A stretch of DNA of 64,000 nucleotides from Cardiobacteriaceae bacterium (GTDB taxonomy: Bacteria > Pseudomonadota > Gammaproteobacteria > Cardiobacteriales > Cardiobacteriaceae), in the NCBI GenBank assembly GCA_030529365.1, contig JAUMXB010000007.1, positions 1-64,000 on the forward strand, written 5' to 3'. Below the pieces are notes generated by a model. That model was not told where the DNA came from and did no database searches. It was given only the letters and a program-made list of their open reading frames with translations. Made by a program: the position numbers and the translations under genes. The stretch's first letter is position 1. Each line of letters opens with the position of its first letter. Shown here one piece after another: positions 5,939-63,958 of the stretch.

Positions 5939-6025
5939 TGGTAAGTTTTCTCGCGAGAAAGCGCTTATGTCGATAAAATTTATCACAATAAGCGCTTATT
6001 GATGGTAAAAAAATAACCATTTTTG
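5939..6025. repeat. AAGCGCTT dispersed repeat, copy 2
   Basis: Cores at 5959-5966 and 5990-5997 (31 bp apart). The right arm is TGGTAAAAAAATAACCATTT. It starts directly at the ppx/gppA stop codon. Confidence 0.9.
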
Positions 6026-11297: not shown

Positions 11298-11380
11298 GTA
11301 TATTTTCTCACCGTGAAGCGCTTATTGTGTAAAAATTTCTCATCATGAGCGCTTATTGATGATAAAAAATGATTATTTAT
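11298..11380. repeat. AAGCGCTT dispersed repeat, copy 5
   Basis: Cores at 11316-11323 and 11347-11354 (the latter GAGCGCTT), 31 bp apart. The right arm is GATAAAAAATGATTATTT. It ends 4 bp before the next gene's ATG. Confidence 0.85.
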
Positions 11381-13197: not shown

Positions 13198-15177
13198 TTA
13201 CGGTGAATCCGCTCGTTGCAGGCGCACGCTTTGATGAGATGGCTGCTCGGGATACTGCAATTTGAAGGTGGCATGAGCGCTTTTGCCTTCGCCGTCCAGT
13301 ACGCGGACGCGGTAATGGCCGCTGCCTTGCGGTGAATAATCAAGCTGCGGGACAAGCGTGCGATCCTGATAGCGTTCATTGATAAACCAGACGTAGGGCG
13401 GCTTGCCGTGCTGCAAGGTGAGTTGCAGGGCAAAGCCCGGGCGCAGTTCCAGAGTGCTGCCGTCGGTTGGGCTTGCCAGCGCAAAGCGCTCGGTTGCACC
13501 GCTTTGGCGGATGGCAAGCGGCATCGGGCGCGGCGGCAGGGGCGCGATGGGATAAGCGCGCGTGGAGGGTTCGGGGATGAAGTTGACGAGTTCCTGATAC
13601 AGCGGAATGAGAGTGGTAGTGCTTTCATATTCACCGGCAAAGCCGCTGTCGGCACGGCCGCGCCAGAGCAGGAGCGTGTGGCGACGCGAATATCCGGCCA
13701 GCCACAGGTCGCGCCAGCCGTAGGAAGTGCCGGTTTTCAGGGCGAAGGTTTCCTGGCCGTGCCGCACGATGCTGTGGCGGCGCAGGATGCGGGTGATTTG
13801 CTCGCAGGCGCTTTTGCTGCCGAGTGTGGGGCTTTCTTGGTGCCAGGTGCACAGCGCCAGTTCGCGATAGAGATTGGCAAGTTCCGAGGGATGGACGCCG
13901 GTGCCGCCGAGAATGAGCGCAGGGCCGGGTTTGCCGTGGTTCGGGAAGTGCAGGGATAGTCCATGACGCTGCAAATGGGTGGCAAATTCGCCGGAATCGA
14001 GCTCCATGATCAGGCGTACGGCGGGTACGTTGCGCGAGAGGGTGAGGGCGTCGGCAAGCGGGATGCGGCCGAGATAGCGGCCATCGTAGTTGACGGGGCG
14101 CCAGGCGCTTTCGTGGATGGGCGTGTCGTCAATGAGAGTATCAGGGCGGTAGTGGAAGCGGGTGAACGCGGCGAGATAGGCGAAGGGTTTCAGGGTGGAA
14201 CCGGGGGAGCGGATGGCGGCCAGAATATCCACGGCACCGCGGCGCGGTACGGAGAAATAATCGGCATTGCCGACATAGGCCAAAATGTCGCCGCTGATGT
14301 TGTCGAGCAACAGGGCGGCAAGGGTGACTTCGCTCTGGTCGCGTAGCAGTGCGGTGCGCAGGCGGTTTTCAAAGGCGCGTTGCAGGCGGATGTCGAGCGG
14401 CGTGTGGCGCTCGTCGGGATGGCGCGCGCGATAGTGCCGGGCAAGCGCCGGAAAAGGATGGTGTTGCGGGCGCACAGCATCGTGCAGCGCGAGCTGGTAA
14501 TCGTGTGCGTCGATGGCATTGCGTTCGCGGGCCAGCGCCAGAACGCGCAGCGCGGCAGCTTGGGCTTTCTCTGGATGCTTGAGGCGGTTTGGCGACTGCG
14601 GCAGGGCGATGAGCCAGGCGGTTTCTGCGGTGGAGAGGGCGGCTGCCGGTTTGCCGAAATAGTGGCGCGCGGCGGTTTCTATGCCTTCGCGGTTGCCGCC
14701 CATGGGGGCCAGGGTGGCGTAGAGGTTGAGGATGTCGTCCTTGCTGTAGCGCCGTTCCAGCTGCCAGGCGCGAAAGGCTTCGATGATTTTGTTTTTCAGG
14801 GTACGCGGGCGCGGTTCGAGCAGGCGCGCGGTTTGCATGCTGAGGGTGGAAGCGCCGGAGATGGTGCGGCCATGCTGGATGTTTTGCCCGAGCGCGCGGA
14901 GAATGGCAAAAGGATCGACTCCGCTATGGCGCATAAAGCGCTGGTCTTCGTAGGCGATGAGCATGGCGCGGTAATGGCGGGGCATGGCTTGCACGGGCAG
15001 GCGGTACTGTTCGTCGTGGCTCATGCCGATGTGGAGGATTTCGCCGTGACGGTCGCGGGTGACGGGGGAGAGATCGTGATAGCGCGTGAGATCGGGCGGG
15101 TAATGATGATCGATGACGCGGGCGAGAAGATAGAGGAGAAAAAGCAGGAAAGCAGATTCAATGAGAAATTTTCCCAT
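13198..15177 (-). CDS. pbpC: Penicillin-binding protein 1C
   Basis: A 659-residue protein. An N-terminal membrane helix (residues ~4-22) precedes a GT51 glycosyltransferase domain (YEDQRFMRHSGVDPFAILRA, ISGASTLSMQTARLL), a transpeptidase domain (SPGSTLKPFAY with the active serine, SRN, and KTGTSYGWRDLWLAGY) and a C-terminal PbpC-type beta domain. PbpC makes and repairs peptidoglycan and is typically encoded beside the alpha-2-macroglobulin YfhM, which lies just upstream here. The start ATG at 15177 falls inside a dispersed repeat and has no visible Shine-Dalgarno. A frame reaching 15279 consists of translated repeat. Confidence 0.92.
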   Translation of the reverse strand: MGKFLIESAFLLFLLYLLARVIDHHYPPDLTRYHDLSPVTRDRHGEILHIGMSHDEQYRLPVQAMPRHYRAMLIAYEDQRFMRHSGVDPFAILRALGQNIQHGRTISGASTLSMQTARLLEPRPRTLKNKIIEAFRAWQLERRYSKDDILNLYATLAPMGGNREGIETAARHYFGKPAAALSTAETAWLIALPQSPNRLKHPEKAQAAALRVLALARERNAIDAHDYQLALHDAVRPQHHPFPALARHYRARHPDERHTPLDIRLQRAFENRLRTALLRDQSEVTLAALLLDNISGDILAYVGNADYFSVPRRGAVDILAAIRSPGSTLKPFAYLAAFTRFHYRPDTLIDDTPIHESAWRPVNYDGRYLGRIPLADALTLSRNVPAVRLIMELDSGEFATHLQRHGLSLHFPNHGKPGPALILGGTGVHPSELANLYRELALCTWHQESPTLGSKSACEQITRILRRHSIVRHGQETFALKTGTSYGWRDLWLAGYSRRHTLLLWRGRADSGFAGEYESTTTLIPLYQELVNFIPEPSTRAYPIAPLPPRPMPLAIRQSGATERFALASPTDGSTLELRPGFALQLTLQHGKPPYVWFINERYQDRTLVPQLDYSPQGSGHYRVRVLDGEGKSAHATFKLQYPEQPSHQSVRLQRADSP

Positions 15178-21376: not shown

Positions 21377-21470
21377 ATGAGAAAATTTACCACCAATAAG
21401 CGCTTATGGTGAGAAAATTTATCAATATAAGCGCTTATTGATGGTAAAAAATAATTATTTTATGGGATTT
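21377..21470. repeat. AAGCGCTT dispersed repeat, copy 9
   Basis: Cores at 21398-21405 and 21429-21436 (31 bp apart). The right arm TGGTAAAAAATAATTATTTT is complete. It lies 8 bp past the nrdD stop. Confidence 0.92.
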
Positions 21471-25746: not shown

Positions 25747-25826
25747 TCGTTTTTTACCACTCACAAGCGCTTATTGTGAGAAAATTTCTCATCATGAGCG
25801 CTTATGGATGAGAAAAAACGATTATG
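25747..25826. repeat. AAGCGCTT dispersed repeat, copy 11
   Basis: Cores at 25765-25772 and 25796-25803 (second GAGCGCTT), 31 bp apart. Its right end overlaps the res stop region. Confidence 0.88.
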
Positions 25827-28518
25827 ATAAATGCTCTTCTACCACATGCCATTGCCGCTCCCGCACCATCACGAAGCGGCAGCGGCCATCGGAAAGTTCT
25901 GCCCACAGGCCACCAATCAGGCGGTCGTCTTCGGCAGCGGCCCAGCCGTTGGCGCCCTTGTATTCCACGGCAAGCACGGAGCCGGGCTGGCCGTTGCTGT
26001 CGGGCAATTGGCAGAGGAAATCCGGGTAGAAGCGCCCGTCGGCTTTTTGCAGGAAGAATGCGCCTTCGCGCCGCACCAGGTTGCGCACCCAGAACTTGAT
26101 GCGCCCTTGCTGTGCCCACATGTCGAGCTGGCAGGCGCATTCAAACTCTTCCCGGCTGTCGAAATCGCCAATGCGCCCGTAAAAATGCCTGCGGAAATCG
26201 AAGTGCCCGAAGCCCCCGTCGTAATCGCTGGCCGGGGCATAGGCCTGCGCATGGAATTCAAAGGCATGGGCGTCGCTCACTGCCACGCGCTCGCGGGCAG
26301 GGTCTGCAAACAGGGTGGCCTGATAAGCGCGGGCAATGGCGGCCTTGCGCAGTTCGCGGATGCGGTTTTCCAGCCGTTTGCGGATGAGGAATTTCTGCAC
26401 ATTGGCGCGGGCGAGCGCAAATCCTTCTGTTTGCAGCAAGGCATTGAGCCAGGCAGCGACAAAGGCCTGCTTGCTGGCATGGGTGAGCGAAGGCTCGGGC
26501 AAGTTGCGGCACAACCATGCGGCAAGGCGCACTGCATCCCGGTTCTCCGGCGTGTACACCAGCCCCAGGTCGCGTTGCAGGGCGGGCAAAAAGCGGGTTA
26601 CCAGCTGGCCGCCCGTGTTGATGTCGATTTCGCCGCCGTCCGCCGTATGCCAGTCGTGATCGAGCGCTGCCACATCCTCGCGCGTTGGCGCGGCCTCGCA
26701 AAGGGCAATATCCCACGGGTAATCCAGCACTTCCGGATCATCGAACAGCGCCAGCCCGCCTTGCACGCGCAAGGCCAGCTGCGGCACGCGGAAGCGCTCG
26801 CCGCGCTCGGCGGGCGTTGTGAAAAATTCGATAGCGACGGTGCGGCTGGCTTCAGCGGCCCGGGCAATTGCCGCGCCCGCCTCGGCTGAGGCAACCAGCG
26901 CTTGCAGTGCCGCGCTTTCCGCCTCATCCAGCGGGGCGTTCAGGGTCAGCGTGTTGTCTGCCTGGTTCCAGGCGACTTTTTTCTGCAAGGGTTTGGGCAG
27001 TTGCCGGATGTCCGGCCTTTCCGGCAATACCGTGCTGACCGGCGTGAAGACCGCCTTGCCTTCCTGCCAGTCCAGCCGCTGCTGTTCGCTGCGGGCAGCG
27101 GCAACAAATTCGCGCACTTCGCGCTTTTCAAAGCCCGCGCCCTGCACCAGCCGGTCGCGCAATTGCCCGGCGGTTTCGGCAAAGTTGCGCGACACCACGA
27201 AGGCATAGGATTGATTGAGTTCCCGCGCCTTGCGCTGGCGTGCGGCAGGTTGGCGCAGGATGCGCCCGAGCAGCTGCTCGACGGCCGTGCCCGATGACAG
27301 CGAAGCCATGCTCACCAGAATGTAGGCAAACGGGCAATCCCAGCCCTCGGCCAGCGCCTTTTGCGTAATGACGTACTTCACCGGGCAGGCCGGATCGGCC
27401 AGCCCTTGCGCATAATCGGCTTCCACTTGCGCAAGCCCCCTGTGCTCGCCGGTGGCAATCACGATGGCTTCGGCGGCAATGCCGTGGTCACGTTGCAGCG
27501 CCTGATAGACGGTATCCACATCCAGCGTTGCCACGCCACTGCGCCGCGCCTCGGCCTGAACCAGCACGATGGGGCGCAGATACGGCGCGCCCTCGCGCTG
27601 CTCGGCATCGGCCAGCGCCTGCAAATCTTCGCGCCGCGCAATGGCATCTGCCAGGCATTGCTGCCAGTTCGGCTCGGTTTGCAGCATCACCGGCAGCTTG
27701 ATCATTTCCTCGGCTTTGAGTTCGGCTGCCGATACGCTGTGCAGCACATTGGACGGGTTTTTTTCCATGTCCGGCGTGGCCGTCAGCTCCAGAATGCCGG
27801 AAGGGCGCAGGCGCGCCAGCATGTCAAAAGCCAGCGTCGTGCGGCTGTTGTGCGCCTCGTCAACGATCACGAAGGGGCGGCGCAGGCGCAGCACATTGGC
27901 CAGCGAGCAGGGCAGCGTGCGGTTTTCCCCTTCGCCCTCGTGCAATAACTGCTCGCGTTGCCAGCTGCCGAGATGCGCGAAATGCTGCATCAGCGCGCCA
28001 TTGGATTGATAGACCTTGTAATGCTCGGTATTGCTGACCTGAAACGCCTGCCGCGTGGCCACAATCACCGTGGTTGAAGTATCCAGCGTGGCGCGGGTCA
28101 CGCTTTGCGCCTCCTGCAAATCCAGCACCATGACTTCGCCCGCATCGCGCAGGGCGGCGTGATAGGGATGCTGGCGGTCTTTCAGCGCTTTCAGGGTTTG
28201 CTCGCGGATGGAATCGCTCGGCACCAGCCACAGAATCACGCTGTGCTCGCTGCGCAGCCAATGGGTATTGACCAGCGCCACGCTTTTCGCCGCCAGCCAC
28301 GTCTTGCCGCCGCCCGTTGGCACACGCAGGCAGAAATACGGCGTATCGGGCGCAAAATCGCCGCGCAAGGGCTGATAGGGACTGCCTTGCCCCCAGAGCT
28401 TTTCAGTCGTTGCGGTAAAGGCCAGCGCCGGCGAATCGTATTCATGGCAGGCGTGGAAATAGGCTGCCACGCTATCCAGCACCTGCTGCTGATAGTTTTT
28501 CGCAATCAGTGCAGACAT
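25822..28518 (-). CDS. Type III-like restriction endonuclease subunit (Res), SF2 helicase-nuclease
   Basis: An 898-residue protein. Helicase motifs in order are PTGGGKT (Walker A, ~residue 69), VDEAHN (Walker B), TATP and QLLGRILRQP (motif VI). The C-terminal nuclease shows FYPDFLC ... VLAVEYKG, a PD-(D/E)xK site. It should translocate on and cut DNA with the adjacent Mod subunit. The start has GGAGG 9 nt upstream and lies 3 bp past the mod stop. Because mod is out of frame here, Res translation may be affected by polarity. Confidence 0.9.
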   Translation of the reverse strand: MSALIAKNYQQQVLDSVAAYFHACHEYDSPALAFTATTEKLWGQGSPYQPLRGDFAPDTPYFCLRVPTGGGKTWLAAKSVALVNTHWLRSEHSVILWLVPSDSIREQTLKALKDRQHPYHAALRDAGEVMVLDLQEAQSVTRATLDTSTTVIVATRQAFQVSNTEHYKVYQSNGALMQHFAHLGSWQREQLLHEGEGENRTLPCSLANVLRLRRPFVIVDEAHNSRTTLAFDMLARLRPSGILELTATPDMEKNPSNVLHSVSAAELKAEEMIKLPVMLQTEPNWQQCLADAIARREDLQALADAEQREGAPYLRPIVLVQAEARRSGVATLDVDTVYQALQRDHGIAAEAIVIATGEHRGLAQVEADYAQGLADPACPVKYVITQKALAEGWDCPFAYILVSMASLSSGTAVEQLLGRILRQPAARQRKARELNQSYAFVVSRNFAETAGQLRDRLVQGAGFEKREVREFVAAARSEQQRLDWQEGKAVFTPVSTVLPERPDIRQLPKPLQKKVAWNQADNTLTLNAPLDEAESAALQALVASAEAGAAIARAAEASRTVAIEFFTTPAERGERFRVPQLALRVQGGLALFDDPEVLDYPWDIALCEAAPTREDVAALDHDWHTADGGEIDINTGGQLVTRFLPALQRDLGLVYTPENRDAVRLAAWLCRNLPEPSLTHASKQAFVAAWLNALLQTEGFALARANVQKFLIRKRLENRIRELRKAAIARAYQATLFADPARERVAVSDAHAFEFHAQAYAPASDYDGGFGHFDFRRHFYGRIGDFDSREEFECACQLDMWAQQGRIKFWVRNLVRREGAFFLQKADGRFYPDFLCQLPDSNGQPGSVLAVEYKGANGWAAAEDDRLIGGLWAELSDGRCRFVMVRERQWHVVEEHLS

Positions 28519-28521
28519 GGC

Positions 28522-30185
28522 TCACACCTCCAGCGCATAAGGGGTTTGCTTGAAAGTGATGCCTTCACGGGCAGTGCGGCTGCCCATGCGGTTGGCAGCA
28601 GCATAAATCACCTTGGCGCCGGAATGGGGCGGCAGGCAGCCATAGACGGCAGCCGTCAGCACATTGCCGCCCTGTGGCGTCTTGTCTTTCAAAATGCCGT
28701 TGAAGAGCAGATAAATCGCCCGTCCTTCGTGAATGCCGAGGAGCGGCGAATCGGCCTTGCCGCCAAAGCCCGTGCCCGTTTCGGCGAACCACACGAATTC
28801 GGCCAGTTGCGCAAAAGTCACGTCTTCGCGGATTTGCCCGTCCGCGCGGAACAAAGGCTCTGCCGACAGGCGGCAAAACTGGAAGCCGCCGCCCAGGCCG
28901 GCCACCGTCTGCCCCTTGCCATTGGTATAGCCATCTGCCACGCGCCGCACCCGCTCGGCCGTGACGTTTTCGGCAATGTGCCTGTCCATCTCCACCAGAA
29001 TGAAACGGCGCTGGCCGCCATCCTCGGCGTTCTGCTTCAACACGGCATGAGCCGTGGTGCCGGAACCGGCGAAGGAGTCGAGAATGAGAGAGTCTTTGTT
29101 GGTCGATATTTTTGTCAAAAACTGAATTAAGCCGCAAGGCTTGGGGAAACTAAATATTTTGCTGCCAAAGATTTCTGTAATTTCCTTTGTGCCATCTTGC
29201 GTCATGCCTACGATTTTTTCCGGCAATAATGTACTAACAGCGGTGTGTCCAAATAATTTTCCTGCTTTTTCTGCCTTGCGTTCATCGTCATCTTTAAAGT
29301 AACGCATTGCCGGGCGTGTAATTTTTAGAAAATCATAATCTCCGGGAAAAATGATCTTCCCCGCATCATAATATTCTTGAAAAGTTTCTTTGCTGACAGC
29401 CCAGGTTCTTATAGGACTTGCTGGATACTCTTCACCTGTCTTGGGATTTACAATCGTAAAAAAACTGTTAGGACGTTCTTCTGCTGTAGTTTGCTTGGTC
29501 AAATCATGAATCCGCCAAGGGCGATCGGGGAAGTCTGCGCTTTCATAATATTTACGCTCTTTGCCTTGTACGCTTGCTGTAAATTGCGCACTTTTGCTAT
29601 AGCACAATATGGCTTCAAAATCCTGAGAAATACCAAAAGGCACATCGGATTTTGCCGTGCGTTTTCTCCAGGGAATATGCGCTACAAAATTTCCTATACC
29701 AAAAATCTCATCCATCAATAGCCGAAGATTGGCCACTTCATTGTCGTCGATGGAGACAAAAATCACCCCGTCCTCGCGCAAAAACTGGCGCAGCAGCACC
29801 AAGCGCGGATACATCATGCACAGCCAGCGGTCGTGGCGATCCAGGGTTTCGCCTTCCTTGCCCACCACTTCACCGAGCCAGCGGCGGATTTCCGGGCTGT
29901 TGACGTTATCGTTGTAAATCCAGCCCTCGTTGCCGGTGTTGTAGGGCGGATCGATATAGATGCATTTCACCTGCCCGGCATAGCGCGGCAGCAGGGCTTT
30001 CAGGGCGTCGAGGTTGTCGCCCTGAACGATCAGGTTGCCAGGGTTATAATTGACTGACTGACTGACTGACCCGGCATTGCGTCCACGGTGCAGGACAATG
30101 CGGCTACCGGTTCCAGCAGACGATAAGGCACATCCTTGTGATGCTTGACGACAGCATCTTTGCCAATCCAGTTCAGCACGGGCAT
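28522..30185 (-). CDS. Type III-like DNA methyltransferase (Mod), frame-disrupted at a (TGAC)5 tract
   Basis: Beta-class adenine/cytosine methyltransferase. The N-terminus MPVLNWIGKDAVVKHHKDVPYRLLEP starts at 30185 with GAGG upstream. The catalytic DPPY motif (29941-29952, in CIYIDPPYNTGNEG) and the SAM-binding FAGSGT (29053-29073) lie in a different frame. The switch falls exactly on five TGAC units at 30051-30070: from the natural ATG, translation passes the tract and stops at 30030. Six or three units would restore one frame of about 555 codons. The segment ~29090-29720 between the motifs (target recognition region) is markedly more AT-rich. An in-frame ATG at 30201 for the downstream frame gives an unnatural N-terminus. 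Confidence 0.85.
30051..30070. repeat. (TGAC)5 tetranucleotide tract in mod
   Basis: Five perfect tandem TGAC units (GTCA on the coding strand), about 38 codons into the methylase gene. Unit number decides the reading frame; the present number gives the OFF frame. Confidence 0.9.
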
Positions 30186-30255
30186 CCGGCAATCCTCGCA
30201 AAAAAATGGTTCCGCATTGTGCCGCACAAGTCCGGAAGCAGCAACATTTAAATAG

Positions 30256-30366
30256 AATGGTAAAAAATCATTATTTTTAATCTCATAAAACTTTGTTTTT
30301 ATCATAAATAAGCGCTTATAACGAGAAAATTTCTCACCATAAGCGCTTCATCATGAGAAATTTTCC
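30256..30366. repeat. AAGCGCTT dispersed repeat, copy 12
   Basis: Cores at 30310-30317 and 30341-30348 (31 bp apart), plus an extra detached arm ATGGTAAAAAATCATTATTT at 30257. Confidence 0.88.
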
Positions 30367-35686: not shown

Positions 35687-35876
35687 GGTTAACTCCTTGC
35701 AGATAAAAAAAGCGCAATGCGCGCGGGCATCATAAAGGATGGCGACAGGTCGGGCAAATGGCTGCGTCTAACCATTTTGCAACTATTTTAATGGATTATT
35801 CTCTACTATAGTGCGCCGCGAAACGCACCCGCCCCGGGCGGGGAAACGCAACCCAACCCTTGAAATGGAGAAAACC

Positions 35877-36236
35877 ATGAAACTTCTGCATACTTCCGCC
35901 CTCGTTCTGCTCGCCGGTTTTTCCGCAGCCAGCTTCGCTGCCGACGAAGGCAGCGTCAACTACCAATGCCAGGGCGGCAAAAGCGTGAAAGTCCACTACA
36001 AGTTCAACAAGGAAGGCATGCCGACCTCGGCCAGCGCCACCTTAAATGGCCAGACGCGCACCCTGAAATACGACCAGGGCAGCTCCGACAATGTCGATAC
36101 CATCTTCCAGGACGGCAACGGCTATCGCCTCTCCAGCAGCTATATGGACGTCTACAACTACCGCCAGCAAAACATCATGATCGTCTCCCCGGAAGGCGAG
36201 GTGCTCTACAAGAACTGCGCGCCGAAGAAAAAATAA
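35877..36236 (+). CDS. Adhesin complex protein (ACP)-like lysozyme inhibitor, single domain
   Basis: A 119-residue protein with signal peptide MKLLHTSALVLLAGFSAASFA. The mature part VNYQCQGGKSVKVHYKFNKEG ... SSDNVDTIFQDGNGYRLSSSYMDVYNYRQQNIMIVSPEGEVLYKNC follows the neisserial ACP pattern closely (VSYVCQQGKKVKV...DNVETFYG...IMITAPDNQIVFKDC). Neisserial ACP is a surface/secreted adhesin that also inhibits C-type lysozyme. Start 35877 has ATGGAG upstream. The next gene, 31 bp on, is a paralogue. Confidence 0.85.
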   Translation: MKLLHTSALVLLAGFSAASFAADEGSVNYQCQGGKSVKVHYKFNKEGMPTSASATLNGQTRTLKYDQGSSDNVDTIFQDGNGYRLSSSYMDVYNYRQQNIMIVSPEGEVLYKNCAPKKK

Positions 36237-36267
36237 TACCGCCCCAGCCTGACAAAGGATATTGCCC

Positions 36268-36945
36268 ATGAAACTTCTGCATACTTCCGTCCTCCTTCTG
36301 CTTGCCGGTTTTTCCGCAGCCAGCCTTGCCGCCGACGAAGGCAGCGTCAACTACCAGTGCCAGAGCGGCAAAAGCGTGAAAGTCCACTACAAATTCAACA
36401 ACGAAGGCATGCCAACCTCGGCCAGCGCCACCCTGAACGGCAAGACGCGCACCATGCGCTACGACCAGGGCAGCTCCGACAATGTCGATACCATCTTCCA
36501 GGATGGCAACGGCTACCGCGTCTCCAGCAGCTATATGGACGTGTACAACTACCGCCAGCAAAGCGTGATGATCATGTCGCCGGGCGGCGAGATTCTCTAC
36601 AAGAGCTGCGCGCCGAGCAAAACGAAGAAAAAGCAGGCCGCCAAGAGCAGCAAAGGCAGCGGCGGCAAGCGCGTGAGCTATATGTGCCAGGGCGATCGTC
36701 GCCTGAATGTGAGCTACCGCTTCAATGCCCAGGGTTTGCCCGTGAGCGCCACCGCCCACCTCAAAGGCCGTGACCGCACCCTGAACTATGACCAAGGCGC
36801 TTCCGACAACGTGGACACGCTCTTCAGCGGACAAGGCTATCGCATCAGCAGCGAATACATGGACAGCGGCAACTACCGCAACCTGCCCGTCATGGTCACC
36901 GCGCCCAACGACGAAATCCTCTACAAGAGCTGCATGCCGAACTGA
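36268..36945 (+). CDS. Tandem two-domain ACP-like protein
   Basis: A 225-residue protein. The signal peptide is nearly identical to the upstream gene's. The first ACP domain (about residues 22-113) is almost the same sequence as the upstream protein. A Lys/Ser linker (KTKKKQAAKSSKGSGGKR) leads to a second, more divergent ACP domain (VSYMCQGDRRLNVSYRFNAQG ... YRNLPVMVTAPNDEILYKSC). The second domain is actually closer to the neisserial text, especially YRNLPVMVTAPNDEI. The upstream gene and domain 1 look like a recent duplication. An AAAGGA ribosome site precedes the start. Confidence 0.85.
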   Translation: MKLLHTSVLLLLAGFSAASLAADEGSVNYQCQSGKSVKVHYKFNNEGMPTSASATLNGKTRTMRYDQGSSDNVDTIFQDGNGYRVSSSYMDVYNYRQQSVMIMSPGGEILYKSCAPSKTKKKQAAKSSKGSGGKRVSYMCQGDRRLNVSYRFNAQGLPVSATAHLKGRDRTLNYDQGASDNVDTLFSGQGYRISSEYMDSGNYRNLPVMVTAPNDEILYKSCMPN

Positions 36946-45028: not shown

Positions 45029-45118
45029 TATTTTTTCTCATCAATAAGCGCTTTTCCGGTAATTTTTCTCACTATAAGCGCTTATGGATGGTAAAAATAC
45101 GCTATTTTAAGGTGATTT
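45029..45118. repeat. AAGCGCTT dispersed repeat, copy 18
   Basis: Cores at 45046-45053 and 45076-45083 (30 bp apart); right arm TGGTAAAAATACGCTATTTT. Isolated extra cores also occur at 44806 and 44984. Confidence 0.88.
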
Positions 45119-53773: not shown

Positions 53774-53862
53774 GATGAGAAATTTTCTCACCAATAAGCG
53801 CTTATTATGAGAAAATTTATCGCAATAAGCGCTTATTGATGGTAAAAATACACTATTTTAGA
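53774..53862. repeat. AAGCGCTT dispersed repeat, copy 23
   Basis: Cores at 53796-53803 and 53827-53834 (31 bp apart), GATGGTAAAAATACACTATT arm. The remaining part of this 307-bp gap has no recognised feature. Confidence 0.92.
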
Positions 53863-63867: not shown

Positions 63868-63958
63868 GAAGTTTTCTCATCATTAAGCGCTTATCGTGAG
63901 AAAATTTATCACGATAAGCGCTTATAAATGGTAAAAAATAACTATTTTCGGCATTTTT
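63866..63958. repeat. AAGCGCTT dispersed repeat, copy 26
   Basis: Cores at 63885-63892 and 63916-63923 (31 bp apart), with the complete TGGTAAAAAATAACTATTTT arm. It overlaps the gshB stop. Confidence 0.93.

Follow-up and report, generated by a model that had tools for sequence, protein, structure and literature searches.

The mod–res Operon

The window, by which we mean the whole stretch of 64,000 nucleotides that was analysed, carries on its minus strand a locus that, judged by its sequence, is a type III restriction-modification operon, with mod followed by res. The features of the locus are as follows.

25763–25805, no strand: intergenic pair of ATAAGCGCTTAT-type repeats, downstream of res
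25822–28518, minus strand: intact res gene for a type III restriction subunit of 898 aa, with TGGGKT, DEAH and PD...EYK
28522–30051, minus strand: catalytic body of Mod, 509 codons and a stop, undamaged, with DPPY at 29952–29941 and FAGSGT at 29073–29056
29101–29700, minus strand: target recognition region of mod, body residues about 121–300
30030–30185, minus strand: OFF-frame product, 51 codons (MPVLNWIGKDAVVKHHKDVPYRLLEPVAALSCTVDAMPGQSVSQSIITLAT) and then TGA, the first ≈32 residues matching the N-terminus of the family
30051–30070, minus strand: (GTCA)5 tract, in the linker joining the N-terminal segment and the catalytic body
30193–30201, minus strand: Shine-Dalgarno-like UUGCGAGGA, 7 nt before the ATG at 30185, duplex −5.9 kcal/mol
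30308–30348, no strand: intergenic ATAAGCGCTTAT repeat pair, upstream of mod

The Mod body matched MTase_III in PADLOC (best model PDLC03644, E = 3.6e-168) and N6_N4_Mtase in Pfam, and no second N6_N4_Mtase gene was found in the source genome. Its membership of the type III Mods follows from this family-level profile match and from DPPY and FxGxG motifs in the beta-class order; relatives of solved structure are the EcoP15I Mod (4zcf), the Mod in 6k0w and Mbo45V (7dsu). The res gene begins three bases past the end of mod, has a strong ribosome site (−10.6 kcal/mol, better than that of the mod ATG at 30185) and matched REase_III (E = 1.2e-112). It adjoins mod and encodes helicase motifs and a nuclease domain, as expected of a type III res. 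Further lesions were sought in the 509 codons of the mod body and the 898 codons of res, and none were found.

An earlier note on this DNA had described a type III mod gene with its N-terminus and catalytic body out of frame, a description borne out by the PADLOC match and by translation of the frames. From its start at 30185 (MPVLNWIGKDAVVKHHKDVPYRLLEPVAALSCTVDAMPG...), the ATG frame reaches a TGA at 30032 after 51 codons, while the body frame, including DPPY and FAGSGT, runs to 28522. With so early a stop in the ATG frame, normal translation at five units would yield no Mod, and the gene was correctly called OFF in that note.

The Repeat Tract and the Frame Break

The tandem repeat (TGAC)5 at 30051–30070 has a match of 100% and reads (GTCA)5 on the minus strand, from 30070 to 30051. 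When one to nine GTCA units were translated, a single open protein was obtained only at three, six and nine (551, 555 and 559 aa, respectively); one, two, four, five, seven or eight units led to a stop after 41–55 codons. The expectation that three or six units give a continuous protein was thus correct, and holds for nine as well. The frame change had also been placed exactly at the tract. The tract does lie in the linker and is the sole repeat there, but both frames are open across it, the body frame from a stop at 30270 and the N-terminal frame as far as 30032, so that the break can be placed only somewhere within the non-homologous linker. It could in principle stem from another linker indel beside the tract. 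Programmed frameshifting was considered but discounted, as inspection by eye of the stretch from the tract to the TGA at 30032 showed no slippery heptamer.

The species is represented by one genome, a draft assembly of 32 contigs. We counted repeats in 40 stretches and the window, together 765,881 bases or about one-third of the genome, and (GTCA)5 was the only tetranucleotide array of at least four units. By chance (order-3 Markov, 10 simulations), 0.1 four-unit arrays and none of five or more units would be expected. The tract has sequence properties by which simple sequence repeats are taken as candidates for phase variation: a unit length that is not a multiple of three, a coding location, occurrence above chance and a published number of units, and a change in that number joins or splits a single reading frame. 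PhasomeIt uses a minimum of five or more units (PMC5953494), and a meningococcal survey, in which modA had 2–34 units, took at least three tetranucleotide units as phase variable (PMC4751487). Since the tract stands at the former minimum and above the latter criterion, it qualifies but is short, as the earlier note had remarked. In another part of the window (35875–36616), there is a 391-base tandem duplication, ≈90% matching, that looks like a recent gene duplication.

Homologues and the Linker

Both sides of the linker are well conserved. The N-terminal 32 residues of Mod have a median identity of 81% to homologues, and body residues 1–120 have about 74–99%. Our set of close mod homologues comprised 80 loci from other bacteria (L023–L102), nearly all of which have the N-terminus, a linker of hypervariable length and the body in a single frame. 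The exceptions are L091 and L092, without a recognizable LNWIGK segment in the body frame, and L100, which lacks its 5′ end. At none of the 80 loci did the mod linker contain a simple repeat. Counted from RLLE to GDN, the homologue linkers that were extracted span 24–48 residues, so the window linker, which has 34 residues at three units and 38 at six, would be tolerated at either length. In an AlphaFold model of homologue L023, the linker is a coil, but the confidence is low (pLDDT 66.8, with residues 1–48 below 50) and the model was given no weight.

Since the homologue linkers are hypervariable and free of repeats, the tract was added in this lineage, exactly where a change in length is tolerated. 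New here is the gain of a tract by a branch of mod genes that is otherwise repeat-free at the 80 loci examined; the foreign recognition domain, the absence of the module from a same-genus genome and the likeness of the tract flanks to those of modA, all described below, are new as well. In one of these loci, from a Halothiobacillus MAG (L080, 3814–3825), a G12 run lies upstream of the mod start, possibly an independent case of promoter-level phase variation.

Possible Acquisition of the Module

The recognition region of mod differs from the rest of the gene. Its GC content is 37–44%, compared to 53–66% on either side, and it is closest to two mods from Selenomonadaceae (Firmicutes), with 62–66% identity. 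Its identity is below 30% to those proteobacterial homologues that resemble the remainder of mod, where the parts before and after it have proteobacterial matches of about 90% and 78% identity, respectively. The recognition domain is thus a foreign mosaic, the product of a cross-phylum domain swap.

In a same-genus genome, in which the MacA-like protein is 90% identical, both flanking genes adjoin with no mod–res between them; this genome is ≈78% complete, but a single contig spans the site in question. No relatives of res were found in 11 other genomes of the window's family. The same-genus site without the module, the absence of res relatives from the family genomes and the foreign recognition domain together indicate that the mod–res module is an islet, acquired or differentially lost, with a swapped recognition domain.

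The module is bracketed by the repeat pairs at 25763 and 30308. These ATAAGCGCTTAT palindromes form an intergenic family of pairs at a spacing of ≈30 bases, flanked by TTTCTCA/TGAGAAA; the family is present in the same-genus genome too. Other examples in the window are at 5959–5999, 11316–11356, 21396–21438, 45044–45085, 53794–53836 and 63883–63925, and a search of the window for ATAAGCGCTT, allowing one mismatch, gave 80 matches where 4.3 were expected. Two unrelated observations are recorded here. A G10 run at 13510–13519 of L140 (G000:C28) lies just upstream of a small bacteriocin-like ORF with a double-glycine leader, a possible case of transcriptional phase variation. In the plasmid collection, NZ_CP119140.1 and NZ_CP119142.1 are whole gonococcal chromosomes (≈2.17 Mb each), apparently filed as plasmids.

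The Proposed Switch and Its Alternatives

We consider it likely that the locus is an OFF allele of a type III restriction-modification system that is switched by changes in the length of the GTCA tract, the mechanism proposed in the earlier note. An OFF allele is the simplest reading because the body and res are otherwise undamaged. Slipped-strand mispairing would add or remove GTCA units, and the gene would be ON at three, six or nine units, making a full-length Mod of 551–559 aa; the shortest route would be from five to six. According to a review (PMC3874151), the type III Res functions as part of a complex with Mod, and its level is raised by Mod. As Res depends on Mod to recognize its target and to remain stable, the OFF state would abolish methylation and restriction together and the ON state would bring both back. 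Rare cells in the population would then be ON, with their DNA methylated and protection in place. A phasevarion, in which methylation alters transcription, may result as well, but the model does not depend on it. Slow switching is to be expected of a tract as short as five units; De Bolle et al. (2000) reportedly found that the rate depends on tract length.

A switch is favoured by the uniqueness of the tract in 766 kb, by the hypervariable linker and by the conservation of both sides of the gene. Against it, the tract is not conserved as a feature, being lacking from 80 of the 80 close homologue loci. Both this and the low number of units would also fit a dead allele, in which the operon, once acquired, is in decay and an inactivating break happens to coincide with a short repeat; the absence of the module from the same-genus genome (≈78% complete) implies that its tenure may have been short. 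A decaying operon would, however, have to have escaped all other damage over ≈1400 codons of mod and res, and a pure five-unit tetranucleotide repeat is not expected by chance here, its origin requiring expansion. We therefore regard a dead allele as improbable.

Two other explanations would leave the gene functional as it stands, and we give each of them very little chance. One is that the tract was miscounted in sequencing or assembly and that the gene is truly in frame. One missing unit would suffice in this draft assembly of 32 contigs, but reads of any type span a 20-bp tract, and the long neighbouring genes (res and those for the MacA-like protein and the MacB-like ABC transporter) are open. 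The other is that Mod is made constitutively despite the five units, by initiation in the body frame at TTG 30201 or 30192, or by reinitiation. The body frame is indeed open upstream to the stop at 30270, giving a 559-aa ORF from TTG 30201. Yet the product of a TTG start would be without the N-terminus that is conserved in nearly all homologues, the TTG ribosome site is weak (−3.5 kcal/mol, compared to −5.9 kcal/mol for ATG 30185), and the next start, GTG 29970, loses the conserved GDNL segment.

Possible Origin of the Tract

One possibility is that an AGTC-type tract was copied, with a few flanking bases, from a modA-type gene into the linker of an unrelated and previously constitutive mod. 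If so, the switch itself would have been transferred, making a constitutive mod phase variable. The flanks in the window are ACGCAATGCCGG(GTCA)5ATTATAACCC, and those in modA are ACGCAATAA(CAGC)nCAATTATACAC; they agree in ACGCAAT a few bases before the tract, in ATTATA directly after it and in a GC-rich linker. Shuffled window flanks reached this agreement at a frequency of 0.001 upstream and 0.0006 downstream, for a comparison picked post hoc among about six genes and resting on modA genes with AGCC/CAGC repeats. The likeness spans different subfamilies and different tract positions. It is best taken as a lead, and such a transfer seems to us rather unlikely. Among 369 genomes of the class, GTCAGTCAGTCAATTATA was present only in that of the window, and a 20-base pattern at the 5′ edge of the tract had no match in viral contigs.

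Separately, ATTATACA follows the tract, directly or after a few bases, in the mods of L006, L007, L010, L144 and L180. It occurs in both the modA and the modD-like subfamily, where it is read in different frames; its counterpart in the window is ATTATAAC.

Comparison with Known Systems

The closest relatives of the window mod belong to a non-variable type III subfamily, MP(T)LNWIGKEAVVKHHKEVPFRLLEP..., of Beta- and Gammaproteobacteria. This subfamily has the same framework, with up to ≈90% identity in the N-part and ≈78% in the C-part, but differs in its recognition domain and in the repeat-free linker at all 80 loci.

Several other mods in the window's family, outside the subfamily of the window mod, do carry repeats: (GAAC)5 in L006, (AACTC)4 in L017, G11 in L018 and (CAGC)12 in the modA of L144, all out of frame; (ACCGA)10 in L007, in frame; and, out of frame straight after the start codon of L010 (G009:C2, 805–1242), an unusually long array of ≈88 pentanucleotide units (AACCG/CCGAA). 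L006, L007 and L010, with their ACCGA/GAAC-type repeats, are putatively modD-like, a name given here after the ACCGA repeat. Like the window mod, these three are repeat-controlled type III genes, mostly OFF in the assemblies; unlike it, they have the tract directly after the start codon, they are ≈40% identical to it over the catalytic part, and no relative of the window res was found in their genomes. Since repeat-controlled mods are common in this family, the prior for a switch in the window gene is raised, and the family would be well suited to studies of the origin of such switches.

The resemblance to modA of Haemophilus influenzae and pathogenic Neisseria is closer in design. Both are type III mods in which a tetranucleotide tract towards the 5′ end determines the frame; both have a variable recognition domain in the centre, the motifs DPPY and FxGxG, and an adjacent res. 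The repeat is of the same kind: AGTC and GTCA are the same repeat cycle (TGAC on the plus strand being the reverse complement), and AGTC repeats are present in some meningococcal modA11 genes (PMC4751487). The window mod is nevertheless not a modA ortholog, since an N-terminal piece of modA had no match in the source genome. It belongs to a different subfamily (its body being closest to PDLC03644), and its tract has only five units and sits elsewhere, between the LNWIGK segment and GDNL.

The two also differ in res, which is intact in the window; in several Haemophilus and Neisseria strains, the modA-associated res is mutated, and the damaged genes in H. influenzae and Neisseria led to the proposal of a dedicated regulatory role for modA (PMC2667262). 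The earlier note had called the window gene a probable regulator. With res apparently intact, a switch of restriction is no less likely at this locus, and we lean against a true phasevarion here while keeping it in view. The locus adds to the candidates for phase-variable type III systems, from a branch in which none of the 80 loci bears a repeat, and, with its apparently functional restriction partner, it could serve to separate phage-defence switching from regulon switching, which are entangled in Haemophilus and Neisseria.
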